36,394 nucleotides of DNA, from NCBI GenBank assembly GCA_003559215.1, contig PWMF01000178.1, positions 1-36,394 of the forward strand, in the 5' to 3' direction. A model generated the notes under the pieces. It was not told the DNA's origin, did not search any database, and saw only the letters and a list, made by a program, of their open reading frames with translations. The DNA is from Natrialbaceae archaeon (lineage in GTDB: Archaea; Halobacteriota; Halobacteria; Halobacteriales; Natrialbaceae). The position numbers were made by a program, and so were the translations under genes. This document shows, one piece after another, positions 7,587 to 31,686 of the stretch; position 1 is the stretch's first letter; every line of letters begins with the position of its first letter.

Positions 7587-8582
7587 TCAGGGACGGGGCG
7601 CGGCCTTCTGCAGGGCCGTCTCCGCGACGTTGCCGCCGTAGTCCGCGCTGCGCGAGAGCGAGTCGAGGACCAGCCCGAGCGACTGGGCCTGGACGGGGTC
7701 GAGATCCCGGAGGAGTTCGTCGACGCGGCGGGTGTGTTCGTCGATCTCCGGGACGGCTTCGAGCGCGCGGTGGCCGTACTCGTTGGCCTCGTCGCTCTCC
7801 TCGGCGAACAGCGCGTCCATCGACCGCTCGATGATCGCCGCCGCGTCCTCGTGGAGAGCCAACAGCGCCTCGGCGACAGCCTCGGGAATCTCCTCGAGTT
7901 TGAGCGCCAGCCGGGCGATCTTGACGGCGTGGTCGCCGACGCGCTCGAGCTGGCGGGCGCTCGAGTGGTAATCGAAACAGTCCTCCCGGGAAACGCCGAG
8001 TCCCTCGGCAGCCCCGGGCGAGCGAAGCGTCGCCCGGAAGATCCGCGAGACGACGAGGAAGAGCCGGTCGACGTCGTCGTCGCGTTCGATGACGTCCTGG
8101 GCGATGTCGTCGTCGTTCTCGACCAGCGCGGTGACCGCGTCGGAGAGCATCGAGGTCGCGATCAGGCGCATCCGGGAGACGGCGTTGACGATCGACAGCT
8201 CCGCGGAGTCGAGCAGGTCTTGGACGACGACGCAATCGCTTCGCTCCTCGACGACCTCGACCCCGATGAGTCCCTGAATCGCGCTTCGGATCGCCCGTCG
8301 CTGCTCGGTCGTGATCCGACCGGCCTCGAGGCGGATGATGTCGAAGCCGCTGACGTACATCGTGAGGATCGCCCGCTTCAACTGCTCGTCGTCGAGCGGG
8401 GCGACCTCGAGGGTTCCCTCCTGGTGGTCGACGTCGCTCTGTGGGGTGATCACGAGCGTATCGTCCTCGGCGTAGATCTCGACGGTCATCCCGCTGCTGA
8501 CGTCGTTTTCCGTCGCCCACGTCTTCGGCAGCGAGACGGTGTAGGTCGAACCCCCGGTCACCTGGATCTTGCGCGTCTCCAT
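7587..8582 (-). CDS. AbrB-PhoU fusion regulator, divergent from pst
   Basis: This 331-residue protein opens with a SpoVT/AbrB-type domain (IQVTGGSTYTVSLPKTWA...GMTVEIYAEDDTLVITP, residues 6-47). It then carries two PhoU three-helix repeats, including DVIERDDDVDRLFLVVSRI and ARQLERVGDHAVKIARLAL, the E/D-rich metal-binding faces typical of PhoU. PhoU proteins couple phosphate uptake to signalling. The AbrB domain suggests DNA or protein binding. It lies head-to-head with pstS across 438 nt and has its own TATA box 27 nt upstream, so it is a strong candidate phosphate regulator here. A second copy of the same architecture ends the pst operon. Confidence 0.9.
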   Translation of the reverse strand: METRKIQVTGGSTYTVSLPKTWATENDVSSGMTVEIYAEDDTLVITPQSDVDHQEGTLEVAPLDDEQLKRAILTMYVSGFDIIRLEAGRITTEQRRAIRSAIQGLIGVEVVEERSDCVVVQDLLDSAELSIVNAVSRMRLIATSMLSDAVTALVENDDDIAQDVIERDDDVDRLFLVVSRIFRATLRSPGAAEGLGVSREDCFDYHSSARQLERVGDHAVKIARLALKLEEIPEAVAEALLALHEDAAAIIERSMDALFAEESDEANEYGHRALEAVPEIDEHTRRVDELLRDLDPVQAQSLGLVLDSLSRSADYGGNVAETALQKAAPRP

Positions 8583-9020: not shown

Positions 9021-10103
9021 ATGACGGACAAGCAGTCCGCAAACGGTCGACTCGGGGGCAAATCACGACGAACGTTCCTGGCCGGCGCAGGCGCGGCGGG
9101 AATCGCGAGTCTCGCGGGGTGTACGGCGTTTCTCGAGAGCGCGGCCGAGACCGACGCGACGATCTCGACGGTCGCCGTCGAGAGCGACGAGGACGGAGAG
9201 TACTACCACCCGACACAGGAGAACATCGAGAGCGGCGTCTACTCGCCGCTGACGCGACCGCTGTTCATCTACGTAAACCACGCGAGCCTCGAGGAGAAAC
9301 CGGACACGCTGGGAACGTTCGTCCGGCACTACTTCGAGGGGCAACACGACTTCTCGCGCGAGACCGGATACTACGCCGCGACCGACGAGGTTCGTGACGA
9401 AAACGAGGCGGAGTTCGAGGCGGTCCTCGAGGAACTCGGCATCGAACCGGACGAGGACGCGGTCGACGACGATATCGACTGCTCGGGCAGCAACACCGTC
9501 GCGCCGGTGACGGACGCAGCGGGCGAGTCCTTCGAGGACGAGTATCCGGACGCGAACGTCTACGTCGACCCGGAGGGGACCGGCGCCGGGTTCGAGGCCT
9601 TCGCGGAGGGCGACTCCGACGTCCAGAGCGCGAGCCGCGAGATCCTCGACGAGGAGGCGGAGATCGCCGAGGAAAACGGCGTCGAGTACAGCCACTACGA
9701 GATCGGCTGGGACGGCCTCTCGATCGTCAAACACGGCGAAAACGACTGGATGGAGGAGATCTCGCTCGAGGACCTCCACGCCGTCTGGCGCTACGAGTCG
9801 GACGTCACCCACTGGAGCGACATCGACGACGACTACCCGGACGAAGAGATCGAACTCTGGGGCCGGGACAGCGACTCCGGAACGTTCGACTACTACACCC
9901 GCGAGATCAACGGCGAGATCGGCTCCATTCGGACCGACTACAGCGCCCACACTCACACCGACTCGATCATGGAGGGCGTCGCCGACAACCAGTACGCCTT
10001 CGGCTGGGGCGGCGTCGGCTACTTCCAAGAACTCGGCGGGACGCCCGGTGAGGACGAGTTCGAGGTCGAAGAAAGCGACGACGAGAGCGGAGACGACGAA
10101 TAA
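9021..10103 (+). CDS. pstS: PstS phosphate-binding Tat lipoprotein with circularly permuted domain order
   Basis: This 360-residue protein is the extracellular phosphate receptor of the PstSCAB importer. A Tat signal (KSRRTFLAGAGAAG, Arg16-Arg17) and lipobox LAGC (Cys34) predict a lipid-anchored protein. The mature chain is in an unusual order. Residues 51-120 (TVAVESDEDG, PLTRPLFIYV at 76-85, an FVRHYFE helix and GYYAATDE) correspond to the C-terminal segment of ordinary PstS. A linker with helix EAEFEAVLEELG follows. The ordinary N-terminal phosphate loop SGSNTV appears only at 155-160. Then come GTGAGFEAF, SASREI (203-208), the hinge region and RDSDSGTFDYY (282-292), with FGWGGVGYFQ at 327-336. 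The chain ends in an acidic tail. All phosphate-contact motifs are kept. pstC starts 15 nt downstream. The family call is firm; the permutation is read directly from motif order. Confidence 0.93.
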   Translation: MTDKQSANGRLGGKSRRTFLAGAGAAGIASLAGCTAFLESAAETDATISTVAVESDEDGEYYHPTQENIESGVYSPLTRPLFIYVNHASLEEKPDTLGTFVRHYFEGQHDFSRETGYYAATDEVRDENEAEFEAVLEELGIEPDEDAVDDDIDCSGSNTVAPVTDAAGESFEDEYPDANVYVDPEGTGAGFEAFAEGDSDVQSASREILDEEAEIAEENGVEYSHYEIGWDGLSIVKHGENDWMEEISLEDLHAVWRYESDVTHWSDIDDDYPDEEIELWGRDSDSGTFDYYTREINGEIGSIRTDYSAHTHTDSIMEGVADNQYAFGWGGVGYFQELGGTPGEDEFEVEESDDESGDDE

Positions 10104-10117
10104 TCCACTCCCCGACA

Positions 10118-11128
10118 ATGAGCACGGAAACAGGCCCGGATTCGGGAATTACCGGCGGCGACGCCAACACGGATCGGCGTCGGAACCGCAGAGTTCGTCG
10201 GCTCCTCTTCGGGTGTACGAGCATCACCGTGTTGACGACGGTGGCGATCTTCGCCGTCCTGTTCGACAACACGTTCAATTTCTTCTACGACGTGCGCTTC
10301 CACGAGTGGCTGATCGGACTCGTCACCGAGTTCCGGATCGTCCCCGAGCAGCGCGTCGCGATCACCGAATTCCTGTTCGACACGGAGTGGCGCCCCTCCC
10401 ACGCTGACGATCCGCGCTTCGGCGTCCTGCCGCTGGTCGCCGGAACCCTGTTGATCACCGTCGGCGCGGCGTTCATCTCGATCCCGATCGGGACCGCGAC
10501 GGCGCTGTACCTCGCCGAGTACGCCCGACCGAGCACGCGCAAGTACCTCAAGCCGACCCTCGAGGTGCTGGCCGGCGTCCCGACGATCGTCTACGGCTTC
10601 TTCGCGCTGACGTTCATCACGCCGAACATCGTCGGGCCGCTCGCGGCGGCGCTCGGACAGGACGTCGGTCGGTTCAGCGCGCTCTCCGGGGCGATCGTCG
10701 TCGGCATCATGACGATCCCGATGGTCGCCTCGATCTCCGAGGACGCGATGTCGTCGGTTCCCGACGAGTTGCGAAACGGGGCGTACGCGCTCGGTGCGTC
10801 GAAGTACACGGTGTCGACCAGCGTCGTGTTGCCGGCGTCGATCTCCGGCGTGATGGCGTCGTACATCCTCGCCGTGTCGCGGGCTATCGGCGAGACGATG
10901 GCCGTCGCGCTCGCGGCGGGTGTCACGCCGCGGCTGACCGCGAACCCGTTCGCCGAGATCCAGACGATGACCGCCTTTATGGTCGACTCGACCAGATCGA
11001 CGATGCTGGTCGGTTCGGTCGAGTACCAGAGCCTGTTCGCCGTGGGGCTGGCGCTGTTCCTCATGACGCTGGCCGCGAACCTACTGAACGACTACGTCAA
11101 GCGGAGTTACCGGGAGGTGTACCGATGA
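10118..11128 (+). CDS. pstC: PstC phosphate ABC transporter permease
   Basis: This 336-residue inner-membrane permease has about six predicted helices and a basic cytoplasmic N-terminus (NTDRRRNRRVRRLL). The first periplasmic loop is long, then comes FGVLPLVAGTLLITVGAAF, where the MetI-like permease domain begins. The EAA loop that docks on PstB reads NGAYALGASKYTVSTSVVLP, followed by the conserved SRAIGETMAVALAAG helix. It pairs with PstA to form the phosphate channel. Its stop overlaps the pstA ATG by 4 nt (ATGA), indicating translational coupling. Similarity to the MetI/PstC family is clear throughout. Confidence 0.95.
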   Translation: MSTETGPDSGITGGDANTDRRRNRRVRRLLFGCTSITVLTTVAIFAVLFDNTFNFFYDVRFHEWLIGLVTEFRIVPEQRVAITEFLFDTEWRPSHADDPRFGVLPLVAGTLLITVGAAFISIPIGTATALYLAEYARPSTRKYLKPTLEVLAGVPTIVYGFFALTFITPNIVGPLAAALGQDVGRFSALSGAIVVGIMTIPMVASISEDAMSSVPDELRNGAYALGASKYTVSTSVVLPASISGVMASYILAVSRAIGETMAVALAAGVTPRLTANPFAEIQTMTAFMVDSTRSTMLVGSVEYQSLFAVGLALFLMTLAANLLNDYVKRSYREVYR

Positions 11129-12036
11129 GCACCGATACCGAGCGACGGACCGCCAGCGAGTGGATGGACGACGTCGATCTGCGCTGGGTAAAGCGGAAGA
11201 ACCGGCTCTTCCATCTCGTCCTCGTCGGCGCCTCCCTGTTCGGTGTGGTCATGCTCGCCTTCCTGATCGCCGACGTCGTACTCGATACCCTGATCGGCGT
11301 CGTGGTCTTCGAGATCGACGTCAGAACCTTCCTCACACAGACCGCCTCGAGCGACTGGGCCAGCGCGGGCTTCCTTGGTGCGATGATCGGATCGGCCTGG
11401 CTGCTCGTCTTTACCCTCCTGTTTTCCTTTTTCCTCGGCGTGGGCACTGCGACCTACCTCGAGGAGTACGCGCCCGACAATCGGACCACGAGGCTGATCG
11501 AGGCGAACCTGACGAACCTCGCGGGCGTTCCATCGGTCGTCTACGGCCTGTTGGCGCTCGGCGTCTTCGTCAACGCGATGCGGATGGGACCGATCCTGGT
11601 CGCCGGCGCACTGGCGCTCGCGTTGCTCGTTACGCCGATCGTTATCGTGGCGAGCCAGGAGGCGCTCCGTGCCGTCCCCGACGGCGTCCGAAACGGCTCG
11701 CTGGCGACCGGCGCGACCCGGTGGCAGACCGTTCGGGGCGTCGTTCTCCCCTCGGCGATGCCCGGCATCGTCACCGGGACGATCCTGGCACTCGCTCGCG
11801 CGAACGGCGAGACGGCGCCGCTGCTCATGGTCGGGACCGTGTGGGGACTGCGACACCACCCCGGTCCGTTCGATCGCTTCGGCGCGATGCCGACCCAGAT
11901 CTACGAGTGGGCGTTCCTGCCCGAACAGGAACTGCAGTACCTCGCCGCGATGGGGATCGCCGTCCTGATGACGATTCTCCTCGCGATGTACGGGGTCGCG
12001 TTCTTCGTGCGAAACAGGCACGAACGAGGCTACTAA
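11125..12036 (+). CDS. pstA: PstA phosphate ABC transporter permease
   Basis: This 303-residue partner permease of PstC has a cytoplasmic N-terminus, a first helix ([18 protein letters not shown]), a long outer loop and then the permease core beginning [18 protein letters not shown]. The EAA docking loop is [20 protein letters not shown], followed by the PstA-typical [15 protein letters not shown] helix. It starts inside the pstC stop and ends one base before pstB, so the transporter genes form a tight unit. A normal length and intact motifs suggest a functional permease. Confidence 0.95.
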
Positions 12037-12037
12037 C

Positions 12038-12874
12038 ATGGCAAGCAACACCGCAAACGACACCGAATCGCTGATCTCGACGGAGGTATCGGTCGACAGG
12101 AGCACTCGAGAGGCGATCTCGGACGAAACGATCGTCGAGACCACCGACCTCGACGTCTACTACGGCGACGAACGAGCCCTGGACGGCATCGACATCGAGA
12201 TTCCCGAGCGACAGGTGACGGCGATTATCGGTCCCTCGGGCTGTGGAAAGTCGACGTTCCTCCGCTCGGTCAATCGGATGAACGACCAGATCGACGCCTG
12301 CCGGATCGAGGGAGCCCTCGATTTCGGCGGAAAAAACGTCTACGACGAGGACGTCGACCCCGTCGCCCTGCGCCGGAAAATCGGGATGGTCTTTCAGAAG
12401 CCCAACCCGTTCCCGAAGTCGATTCGTGACAACGTCGCCTACGGATTGAACGTGCAGGGCAAGACCGAGAACGTCGACGAGCGCGTCGAGGAAGCACTGC
12501 GCGGTGCAGCGCTGTGGGACGAGGTGAAAGACCAACTCGACTCGAGCGGACTCGACCTCTCGGGCGGACAACAGCAACGGCTCTGTATCGCCCGGGCGAT
12601 CGCGCCGGATCCCGAAGTGATCCTGATGGACGAACCGACGTCGGCGCTCGACCCCGTCGCGGCCTCGAAGATCGAGGACCTCATCGACGACCTGACCGAG
12701 CACTATACAGTCATCATCGTCACTCACAATATGCAGCAGGCGGCCCGGATTTCGGACAAGACCGCCGTCTTCCTCACCGGTGGTGAACTCGTCGAGTTCG
12801 ACGACACTGCCACGATCTTCGAGGATCCCGAGGACCAGCGCGTCGAAGACTACATCACCGGGAAGTTCGGCTAA
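12038..12874 (+). CDS. pstB: PstB phosphate-transport ATPase
   Basis: This 278-residue ABC ATPase powers phosphate import. The motifs are Walker [10 protein letters not shown] (65-73), a Q-loop in [14 protein letters not shown], signature LSGGQQQR (174-181), Walker B VILMDEP (194-200) and the switch His in [12 protein letters not shown]. The insert [20 protein letters not shown] and the QKPNPFP motif are specific to PstB among ABC ATPases. A disordered N-terminal extension of about 30 residues precedes the fold. One base separates it from pstA and two bases from phoU. Confidence 0.97.
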
Positions 12875-12876
12875 CC

Positions 12877-13536
12877 ATGTCACGAACGGACTACCAGCAG
12901 CAACTCGAGGAACTGCGAACGAACGTCGTGGAGCTGTCGGAACTCGTCTGTCACCGGCTCCGGCGGGCGCTTGAGGTCTACGAGCGGAAAGACGGTGCCC
13001 TCGCGGAAGAGGTAATCACCGGCGACCACGAAATAAACGAGCGGTATCTCGAGCTCGAGCAGGACTGTATCGAGCTGCTCGCGCTCCAACAGCCCGTCGC
13101 GGGCGATCTTCGGCTCATCGCCTCGTCGTTCAAGATCATCACCGACCTCGAACGGATCGGCGACCTCGCGGTGAATCTCGGGGAGTACACGCGTCAGGCG
13201 GCCCGCAGCCGGTATCCGGATATCGACATCGCGTCGATCGGTGAAGAAACGGTCAGAATGGTCGAGGCCGCGACGGACGCCTACGCGACCGACGACGCCG
13301 CGGCGACCTACGAGGTCGCGGCCGACGACGACGCGGTCGACGAGCGCTGCGAGCGGGCGAGCGAGGTCGTCATCCAGGACCTCCTCGAGACGGAGGTCGG
13401 CGACGAGTCGCTGCTCGAGGACGTCTCACGGATGCTGCTGACGATCCGCGACCTCGAGCGCGTCGGCGACCACGCGGTCAACATCGCCGCACGGACGCTG
13501 TACATGGTCGACAACGACGATGAGCTGATCTACTGA
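12877..13536 (+). CDS. phoU: PhoU phosphate signalling protein
   Basis: This 219-residue classical PhoU has two three-helix repeats. Each repeat ends in the metal-binding signature: FKIITDLERIGDLAVNLGEY and LLTIRDLERVGDHAVNIAAR. PhoU restrains the Pst transporter and, in bacteria, links it to PhoR; haloarchaea use other partners. It follows pstB by 2 nt. Its TGA shares one base with the ATG of the next AbrB-PhoU gene (TGATG), so all six genes from pstS appear to be one transcript. Confidence 0.95.
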   Translation: MSRTDYQQQLEELRTNVVELSELVCHRLRRALEVYERKDGALAEEVITGDHEINERYLELEQDCIELLALQQPVAGDLRLIASSFKIITDLERIGDLAVNLGEYTRQAARSRYPDIDIASIGEETVRMVEAATDAYATDDAAATYEVAADDDAVDERCERASEVVIQDLLETEVGDESLLEDVSRMLLTIRDLERVGDHAVNIAARTLYMVDNDDELIY

Positions 13537-14537
13537 TGAGTCAGTACCGTTCGGCAAACGGCTGGGAACCCGTCGAACGAAAGGTCCAGCTGGCGGGTAA
13601 CTCCACGTTCGTCGTCTCGCTTCCCAAGGAGTGGGCGCTCGCACAGGACCTCGAATCGGGAATGTCGATGCACCTCTACCCTCACGAGGACCGCGTCGTC
13701 GCGGCGGCGGAGACCGTCCCGGACCAGGACCGGAGCGCGACCGTCGACGCCGCGACCGTCGACGACGAAACCGTGTTGCGACGCGTTCGTTCGGCGTACG
13801 TCGTCGGGCGCGACCGGATCACGATCGTCGGGGCTGACGGACTCGACCAGGAGTCCCGTCGCGCGCTCGATCGGGTCGTCGGTCGTCTCGTCGGCGTCGA
13901 GATCCTCGAGGACACCGGGGAGCGGATCGTCGTCCAGGACCTGCTCGACGTCGACGACGTCTCGCTTCCGCAGACGCTCGTCCAGGCGCGCCAGCTGGCC
14001 CTGGAGATGCACGCGGACGCCCTCGAGGCGCTGGCACGGAACGACGAGGAGCTCGCCCGTCGGGTGATCGATCGGGACGACGAGGTCGATCGGCTGTTCG
14101 CGTTCGTGAGCCGCGGGTTCCACCGCGGCCTCGAGGACGTCCACGAGATCAACCGGCTCGGTACGGATCGGGCCTCGGCGTTTCGGGACTACCGGATCGC
14201 CCGCCAGCTCGAGCGCGTCGGCGACCACGCCGAACGGATCGCGACCGTCGCCATCTCCCAGTCGGGCCCGCCCGCCGACGCGATCGGCGACTCGATCGAG
14301 ACCGTGGGCGCCGACGCGCGGCGATCCCTCGAGCTAGCGCTCGCAGGGGAGGTCGAACGTGCCACCGACGCGATCGAGGACGCCCTCGAGGCGATCGAGG
14401 AACTCAACCGCCGGCTCTACGAGAGCGACGAGCCGGACGCCTACCGATACGGAACGGTCCTCGAGAGTCTGCGGCGGACGGGAGCGATCGCCAGCAACGT
14501 CCTGGGGGTGGCGAGCGAAACGAGAATCGACGAGTAG
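13536..14537 (+). CDS. AbrB-PhoU fusion regulator, last gene of the pst operon
   Basis: This 333-residue protein has the same design as the gene at 7587-8582. It has an N-terminal AbrB-like domain (VQLAGNSTFVVSLPKEWA...SGMSMHLYPHEDRVV, residues 17-56) and then PhoU repeats with RVIDRDDEVDRLFAFVSR and ARQLERVGDHAERIATVAI. The two AbrB-PhoU proteins are clearly related but well diverged, so the duplication is old. Coupled translation after phoU suggests it acts with the transporter, either sensing transport state or regulating the promoter. DNA binding is inferred from the domain only. Confidence 0.88.
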   Translation: MSQYRSANGWEPVERKVQLAGNSTFVVSLPKEWALAQDLESGMSMHLYPHEDRVVAAAETVPDQDRSATVDAATVDDETVLRRVRSAYVVGRDRITIVGADGLDQESRRALDRVVGRLVGVEILEDTGERIVVQDLLDVDDVSLPQTLVQARQLALEMHADALEALARNDEELARRVIDRDDEVDRLFAFVSRGFHRGLEDVHEINRLGTDRASAFRDYRIARQLERVGDHAERIATVAISQSGPPADAIGDSIETVGADARRSLELALAGEVERATDAIEDALEAIEELNRRLYESDEPDAYRYGTVLESLRRTGAIASNVLGVASETRIDE

Positions 14538-31575: not shown

Positions 31576-31611
31576 AACGACTCCGCTCCTCGCAAGTTGT
31601 CGCTCGAAAAG

Positions 31612-31686
31612 TGGGTTGGGGCAGATTTGAACTGCCGGCCTCCTCCATGTCAAGGAGGTGTCATAACCAGACTAGACCACCAACCC
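31612..31686 (-). tRNA. tRNA-Val (anticodon GAC)
   Basis: The 75-nt tRNA reads leftward. The acceptor stem GGGTTGG pairs with CCAACCC and the discriminator base is A. The D-arm is GTCTAGTCTGGTTATGAC. The anticodon stem CCTCC/GGAGG encloses loop TTGACAT, with GAC at its centre, so it reads valine codons GUC/GUU. The T-arm GGCAGTTCAAATCTGCC is normal. CCA is not encoded. TTTT follows one base after the 3' end, a plausible stop signal. No intron is seen. Confidence 0.96.

Follow-up and report, generated by a model that had tools for sequence, protein, structure and literature searches.

The window analysed here, a stretch of 36,394 nucleotides from a Natrialbaceae archaeon (contig PWMF01000178.1), contains a pst operon whose first gene encodes a PstS that is, judged by its sequence, a true circular permutant, in which every segment of the standard protein occurs once. 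Very probably, this lipoprotein binds phosphate for a Pst importer, and its mature chain would have become circularly permuted via duplication and loss. The gene, the parts of its protein and its neighbours are the following.

7587-8582, minus strand: regulator with an N-terminal AbrB/MazE-like domain and a PhoU domain, divergent from pstS (PF04014, PF01895)
9021-10103, plus strand: permuted pstS, ATG start, 360 amino acids plus stop
9021-9122, plus strand: twin-arginine signal and lipobox (residues 1-34, SRRTFL...LAGC; RR and [AST]GC pattern)
9123-9152, plus strand: short spacer (residues 35-44; pLDDT below 50 through residue 44)
9153-9374, plus strand: ex-C-terminal segment (residues 45-118), from homology and predicted elements, its lobes being those suggested by PMC12421899
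9375-9470, plus strand: ex-C-terminal helix (residues 122-139), which matches the collinear C-terminus and is a helix in the model, and new joint (residues ~140-150)
9471-10034, plus strand: ex-N-terminal three fifths (residues 151-338), carrying the motifs of the phosphate site (PF12849, best stretch 145-332)
10035-10103, plus strand: acidic C-terminal tail (residues 339-360) and stop, without remnant of the moved segment
10118-11128, plus strand: pstC permease (PF00528; a homologue follows pstS in 11/11 other permuted loci)
11125-12036, plus strand: pstA permease (PF00528; 11/11 other permuted loci)
12038-12874, plus strand: pstB ATPase (PF00005; 11/11 other permuted loci)
12877-13536, plus strand: PhoU (PF01895 in two stretches; 11/11 other permuted loci)
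13536-14537, plus strand: PhoU-domain regulator (PF01895)

The PstS motifs, each present once, stand in the open reading frame where the first-pass annotation had placed them: PLTRPLFIYV at residues 76-85, GYYAATDE at 116-123, SGSNTV at 155-160, SASREI at 203-208, RDSDSGTFDYY at 282-292, and FGWGGVGYFQ at 327-336. The collinear segment order of standard PstS is absent from this protein. The same annotation had proposed an alignment with a canonical PstS duplicated head to tail, and this check bears out the circular permutation, the match being continuous across the joint. When the mature permuted chain is aligned to L070, the collinear PstS of a Halococcaceae genome (G418), written twice head to tail, residues 48-355 fall within one alignment that passes through the old C/N joint, with 193 of 303 residues identical; its gaps are 14 residues at the joint, contributed by the loose ends of L070, and then just two small ones in the acidic tail. 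The gain in local score of the doubled relative over a single copy is 327 for L070, 265 for L014, 256 for L008, and 93 for L002, as compared with at most 26, 28, 16, and 26, respectively, when the extra copy placed first is shuffled (200 shuffles each). Taken piecewise, residues 45-143 align with L070 residues 237-331 (66 of 95 aligned residues identical) and residues 144-338 with L070 residues 40-230 (121/191).

A phmmer search of the PDB reports hits with the PstS structure 4jwo for two stretches in swapped order, residues 146-337 matching residues 57-248 of the 4jwo chain (149.3 bits) and residues 47-110 matching residues 252-313 (24.0 bits), while collinear L070 matches 4jwo in a single stretch (35-310 to 51-325). 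Because of this swapped order, the profile matches are also split in two, both for PF12849 (95.9 bits against a cut-off of 27) and for TIGR02136 (185.1 bits, below the cut-off of 206.6). With a TIGR02136 match that is split and under its cut-off, permuted proteins may therefore be missed or mislabelled by annotation pipelines. Of the two observations that, by the first-pass annotation, would have spoken against the permutation, neither was made: residues 45-143 are homologous to the PstS C-terminal segment, and no second copy of it comes after residue 336. A putative remnant of that segment in the acidic tail, which is 7-26 residues long among the 12 permuted proteins found in this work, was rejected by local alignment against 1000 shuffled tails (p 0.09-0.87, 12 proteins). 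Two details of the original description needed amendment. The C-terminal part did move to the front, as first described, but it represents about a third of the mature chain (residues 45-143) instead of the last quarter. Residues 122-139, the helix that was taken as part of a linker between the old termini, form the usual C-terminal helix of PstS, their region matching the C-terminus of collinear proteins (e.g. L008, ...EVTQENQDKLDSWLEQVG), and the new joint comprises only about ten residues (~140-150). At the N-terminus, the RR and [AST]GC pattern is found in all 12 permuted proteins, the lipobox cysteine of the window's protein being Cys34, and the Pfam TAT_signal profile returns 13.2 bits, below its cut-off of 22.7.

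A first AlphaFold2 model, calculated from seven whole proteins, has a mean pLDDT of 56.7 and is good only for residues ~79-231, with a dip at 109-117. The second model (mean pLDDT 84.3, pTM 0.78) displays the element order expected of a rotated type II binding fold; it is no independent test of this fold, since its alignment, deepened with collinear viral PstS loci, held collinear pieces that were cut at the break and set by MAFFT in rotated positions. Foldseek reports PstS 4jwo as the best PDB match of the second model (E-value 1.9e-15, 201 columns), with TM values of 0.44 by query and 0.54 by target from an aligner that follows sequence order only. Such a match is in keeping with a sequential aligner seeing only part of a rotated chain.

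According to PMC12421899, the N-lobe of CpPstS is made up of residues 24-111 and 279-324, with strands 1-4 and 14, and helices 12 and 13 among its helices, and the C-lobe lies between these two parts. Matched by order of elements rather than by alignment, strand 14 of CpPstS would correspond to E78-86 of the permuted protein and helices 12-13 would fall within H94-114. Residues 45-118 would hence contain the edge strands of lobe II, the crossover, the strand PLFIYV, and helices of lobe I, and the break, between E326-331 and E47-54, would be located in the C-lobe (lobe II). The chain would begin in lobe II, pass into lobe I, run through the joint there, and then go back to lobe II, so that its new ends would separate the last core strand of lobe II from the edge strands of that lobe. 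With the new ends in lobe II, lobe I should be built from an uninterrupted piece of chain and lobe II from two, whereas normal PstS has a split lobe I and a continuous lobe II. The lipid anchor at Cys34 should then move from lobe I to lobe II; this shift, deduced from the published domain limits of another PstS and not from an experimental structure, agrees with the earlier suggestion that the anchor attaches at a different face of the fold.

PMC12421899 and PMC5439949 name the residues that form hydrogen bonds with phosphate in PstS structures. Motif matching to these assigns a probable ligand-site role to S157, T159, T187, S205, R282, G287, and T288, which are kept in 12/12 permuted proteins. 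Nei-Gojobori analysis of five pairs, all within the window's family (f1), reports dN/dS values of 0.055-0.144 for the moved part (residues 45-118), 0.069-0.397 for residues 119-150, and 0.08-0.207 for the core, synonymous sites being saturated for two tail values and one signal value. Both rotated parts are under purifying selection. The permuted PstS would fold into the same two-lobe clamp, bind phosphate, and hand it to PstC/PstA. The low dN/dS and the kept ligand-site residues, together with the complete pst set, support the initial proposal of a functional natural rearrangement, as far as sequences can tell.

The permuted pstS is the first gene of a pstC-A-B-phoU set in all 12 loci, a layout also found at the collinear pstS of G418. 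A homologue of the divergent AbrB-PhoU-like gene stands beside pstS in 7/11 other permuted loci; it was not found in the three f11 loci (G337, G409, and G415) or on the G115 contig, which is short. It is present as well beside the collinear G418 pstS, where it is cut by the contig end. Further downstream in the window, the PhoU-domain gene at 13536-14537 has a sub-threshold MazE/AbrB-like match (12.4 bits), and a tRNA-Val (gac) is located at 31611-31686 on the minus strand.

The first-pass annotation had suggested a search for the same order in haloarchaeal PstS proteins, and 11 other genomes contain it. Whole-genome protein searches, with the segment order read by script on the fetched loci, identify the permuted order in 5/125 genomes of f1, in 4/10 genomes of family f9, and in 3/4 genomes of family f11; the named carriers are Natronococcus amylolyticus (L004), Natronorubrum texcoconense (L005), and the MAGs holding L006 and L007. 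At an E-value limit of 1e-45, no permuted order was detected in 146 genomes of family f3 or 170 genomes of family f4. Even draws from the class (391 genomes) and from the phylum (392 genomes, E-value limit 1e-47), in which the order was judged from the query range of the listed matches, reported none outside f1, f9, and f11 among these matches. As a rule, the best 5, 14, 12, and 5 first-look candidates were scored per genome in the class, f3, f4, and phylum searches, respectively, so that a far-diverged permuted copy could be missed. Families f2, f5-f8, and f10 were covered through the class and phylum samples only, and bacteria through plasmid records only, where 80% of the query was covered in none of the 39 matching records. 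Viral contigs scanned with the permuted alignment and with the L112 protein did not return any relative. L039 of Natronomonas pharaonis (match 41-338) and L008 of Natronocalculus amylovorans (match 43-338), which had seemed permuted, are collinear by segment order. Among 78 different single-copy PstS with both segments, the moved segment stands ahead of the core in 12, and the core stands ahead of the segment in the other 66. Outside the tree of these 78 proteins are L081 and L088, which have a core match without the C-terminal segment, and the tandem proteins L055 and L083. In two f11 genomes, G415 (L102/L108) and G409 (L054/L107), a permuted PstS coexists with a collinear one from the same broad subfamily, and each of the two has permease genes of its own.

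That the permutation results from an assembly error or a frameshift is so improbable as to be negligible: the window's genome is split into 222 contigs with 6.25% contamination, but 12 genomes show the same order, which in two cases lies on a contig of megabase size (3.4 and 3.76 Mb), and this argues against an artefact. A different concern is that the permuted protein might have lost its transport role and now serve solely as a sensor of phosphate or a reserve binder, because the strain also has a collinear PstS. Indeed, the window's genome encodes the collinear L002 on contig C133 and, in addition, the PF12849 protein L003; the frame that follows L002 was judged PstC-like by eye only. Such a loss of transport function is nevertheless quite improbable in view of the purifying selection on both parts and of the position of the permuted gene at the head of a complete pstSCAB-phoU set in 12/12 loci. 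A transport role for a permuted PstS thus remains the preferred reading.

As to its origin, the mature region would have been duplicated in tandem and in frame behind a single signal peptide; the permuted gene would then have resulted once the first copy had lost its N-terminal part and the second copy its C-terminal part. Such an intermediate is possible, since tandem PstS-PstS fusions exist in two haloarchaeal genomes, both of f3: L055 (G185, minus strand, 672 residues) and L083 (G444, minus strand, 667 residues). Their halves are 96.3% and 91.8% identical, and the two proteins share 488 of 658 residues; they belong to another PstS subfamily than the permuted proteins. The permuted L040 (G315) and the collinear L070, which fall under one genus code, have the stretch DPSRITGSTSRR of their signal peptides in common. 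Given this shared signal and the same operon layout, the mature part would therefore have been rotated in place behind the old signal. This may have happened once or more than once. In the PstS tree, the 12 permuted proteins and the collinear G418 protein form one group (98/93), with G418 placed weakly inside (84/47). The tree of PstC, PstA, and PstB from 18 operons groups G418 with the nine permuted operons of f1 and f9 (96/97) and rejects one clade of the 12 permuted operons (p-AU 0.017), so that a one-event history may be wrong. Two permutations at the same site, in f11 and in f1/f9, or a shared tandem duplication resolved apart in each, would account for this conflict and for the weaker same branching in the PstS tree, as well as for the differences between the two groups in tails (7-8 vs 18-26 residues) and spacers (11-12 vs 16-17 residues). 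However, PstS alone does not reject a single clade of the 12 (p-AU 0.47), and a transfer of pstS between operons would equally explain the tree conflict. The permuted proteins also have features of their own: C154 (window 9480-9482), which adjoins the phosphate loop, occurs in 12/12 permuted proteins versus 0/42 close collinear ones, hand-picked from the 66, and 0/66 of all collinear ones; W230, E318, and H63 each occur in 11/12 versus 0/42; and GY.A lies 39-41 residues from GSNT in each of the 12. These residues and the near-fixed joint length favour one origin, or else common structural demands of the new topology, and a double origin is accordingly a tentative reading, if one of appreciable probability. 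A more elaborate history, in which an early haloarchaeal tandem PstS-PstS gave rise to permuted forms in two lineages and a collinear one in a third, the anchor switching more than once and the lobe II tether aiding docking or gating, is on the whole unlikely.

The window's protein has the same segments, ligand-site residues, Tat-type lipoprotein signal, and operon as the PstS proteins of TIGR02136/PF12849 (PDB 4jwo; NP_RS13460 on plasmid PL131 of Natronomonas pharaonis), and differs from them in its segment order, in its ends, which probably lie in lobe II, and in its TIGR02136 score. The tandem proteins L055 and L083 contain the same kind of C-to-N joint in one chain but possess two complete copies and are not permuted. 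Among other binding proteins, TpMglB-2 of Treponema pallidum ('Type Ic') is described in PMC4990184 as a membrane-tethered binding lipoprotein with a natural circular permutation, for which tethering was raised as a cause. The last 100 residues of TpMglB-2 and the first 100 residues of EcMglB are 13% identical, TpMglB-2 has gained a fourth crossover, and the authors of that paper left open an origin from another gene. TpMglB-2 is a sugar binder of fold type I; in contrast, the moved part of the permuted PstS is identical to its collinear relative at 66 of 95 residues, and its element order implies that, unlike in TpMglB-2, no crossover would have been added. The Pfam and PDB sequence matches of the permuted PstS are to PBP_like_2 and phosphate-binding proteins, with no sign of kinship to the type I sugar binders. 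The glycine-betaine binders OpuAC and ProX, which bind a different ligand, are likewise binding proteins related by circular permutation, any pair of six being less than 24% identical according to PMC2395249; OpuAC also appears in the Foldseek list for the permuted PstS model.

No permuted PstS was found among the matches listed in the open-access literature searched. Natural permuted binding proteins are already known; the window's protein is classed by homology and gene context as a PstS, in a permuted form that is new as far as this literature shows. It also illustrates that collinear profile models can under-score permuted genes. Whereas the permuted binding proteins met in the literature are ancient and strongly diverged, permuted and collinear PstS differ at only about a third of their residues, have their signal peptide and operon place in common, and coexist within a single genus. 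This closeness makes the event and its effect directly testable, and these haloarchaea offer a natural experiment on whether it matters to the importer by which lobe its binding protein is anchored in the membrane.
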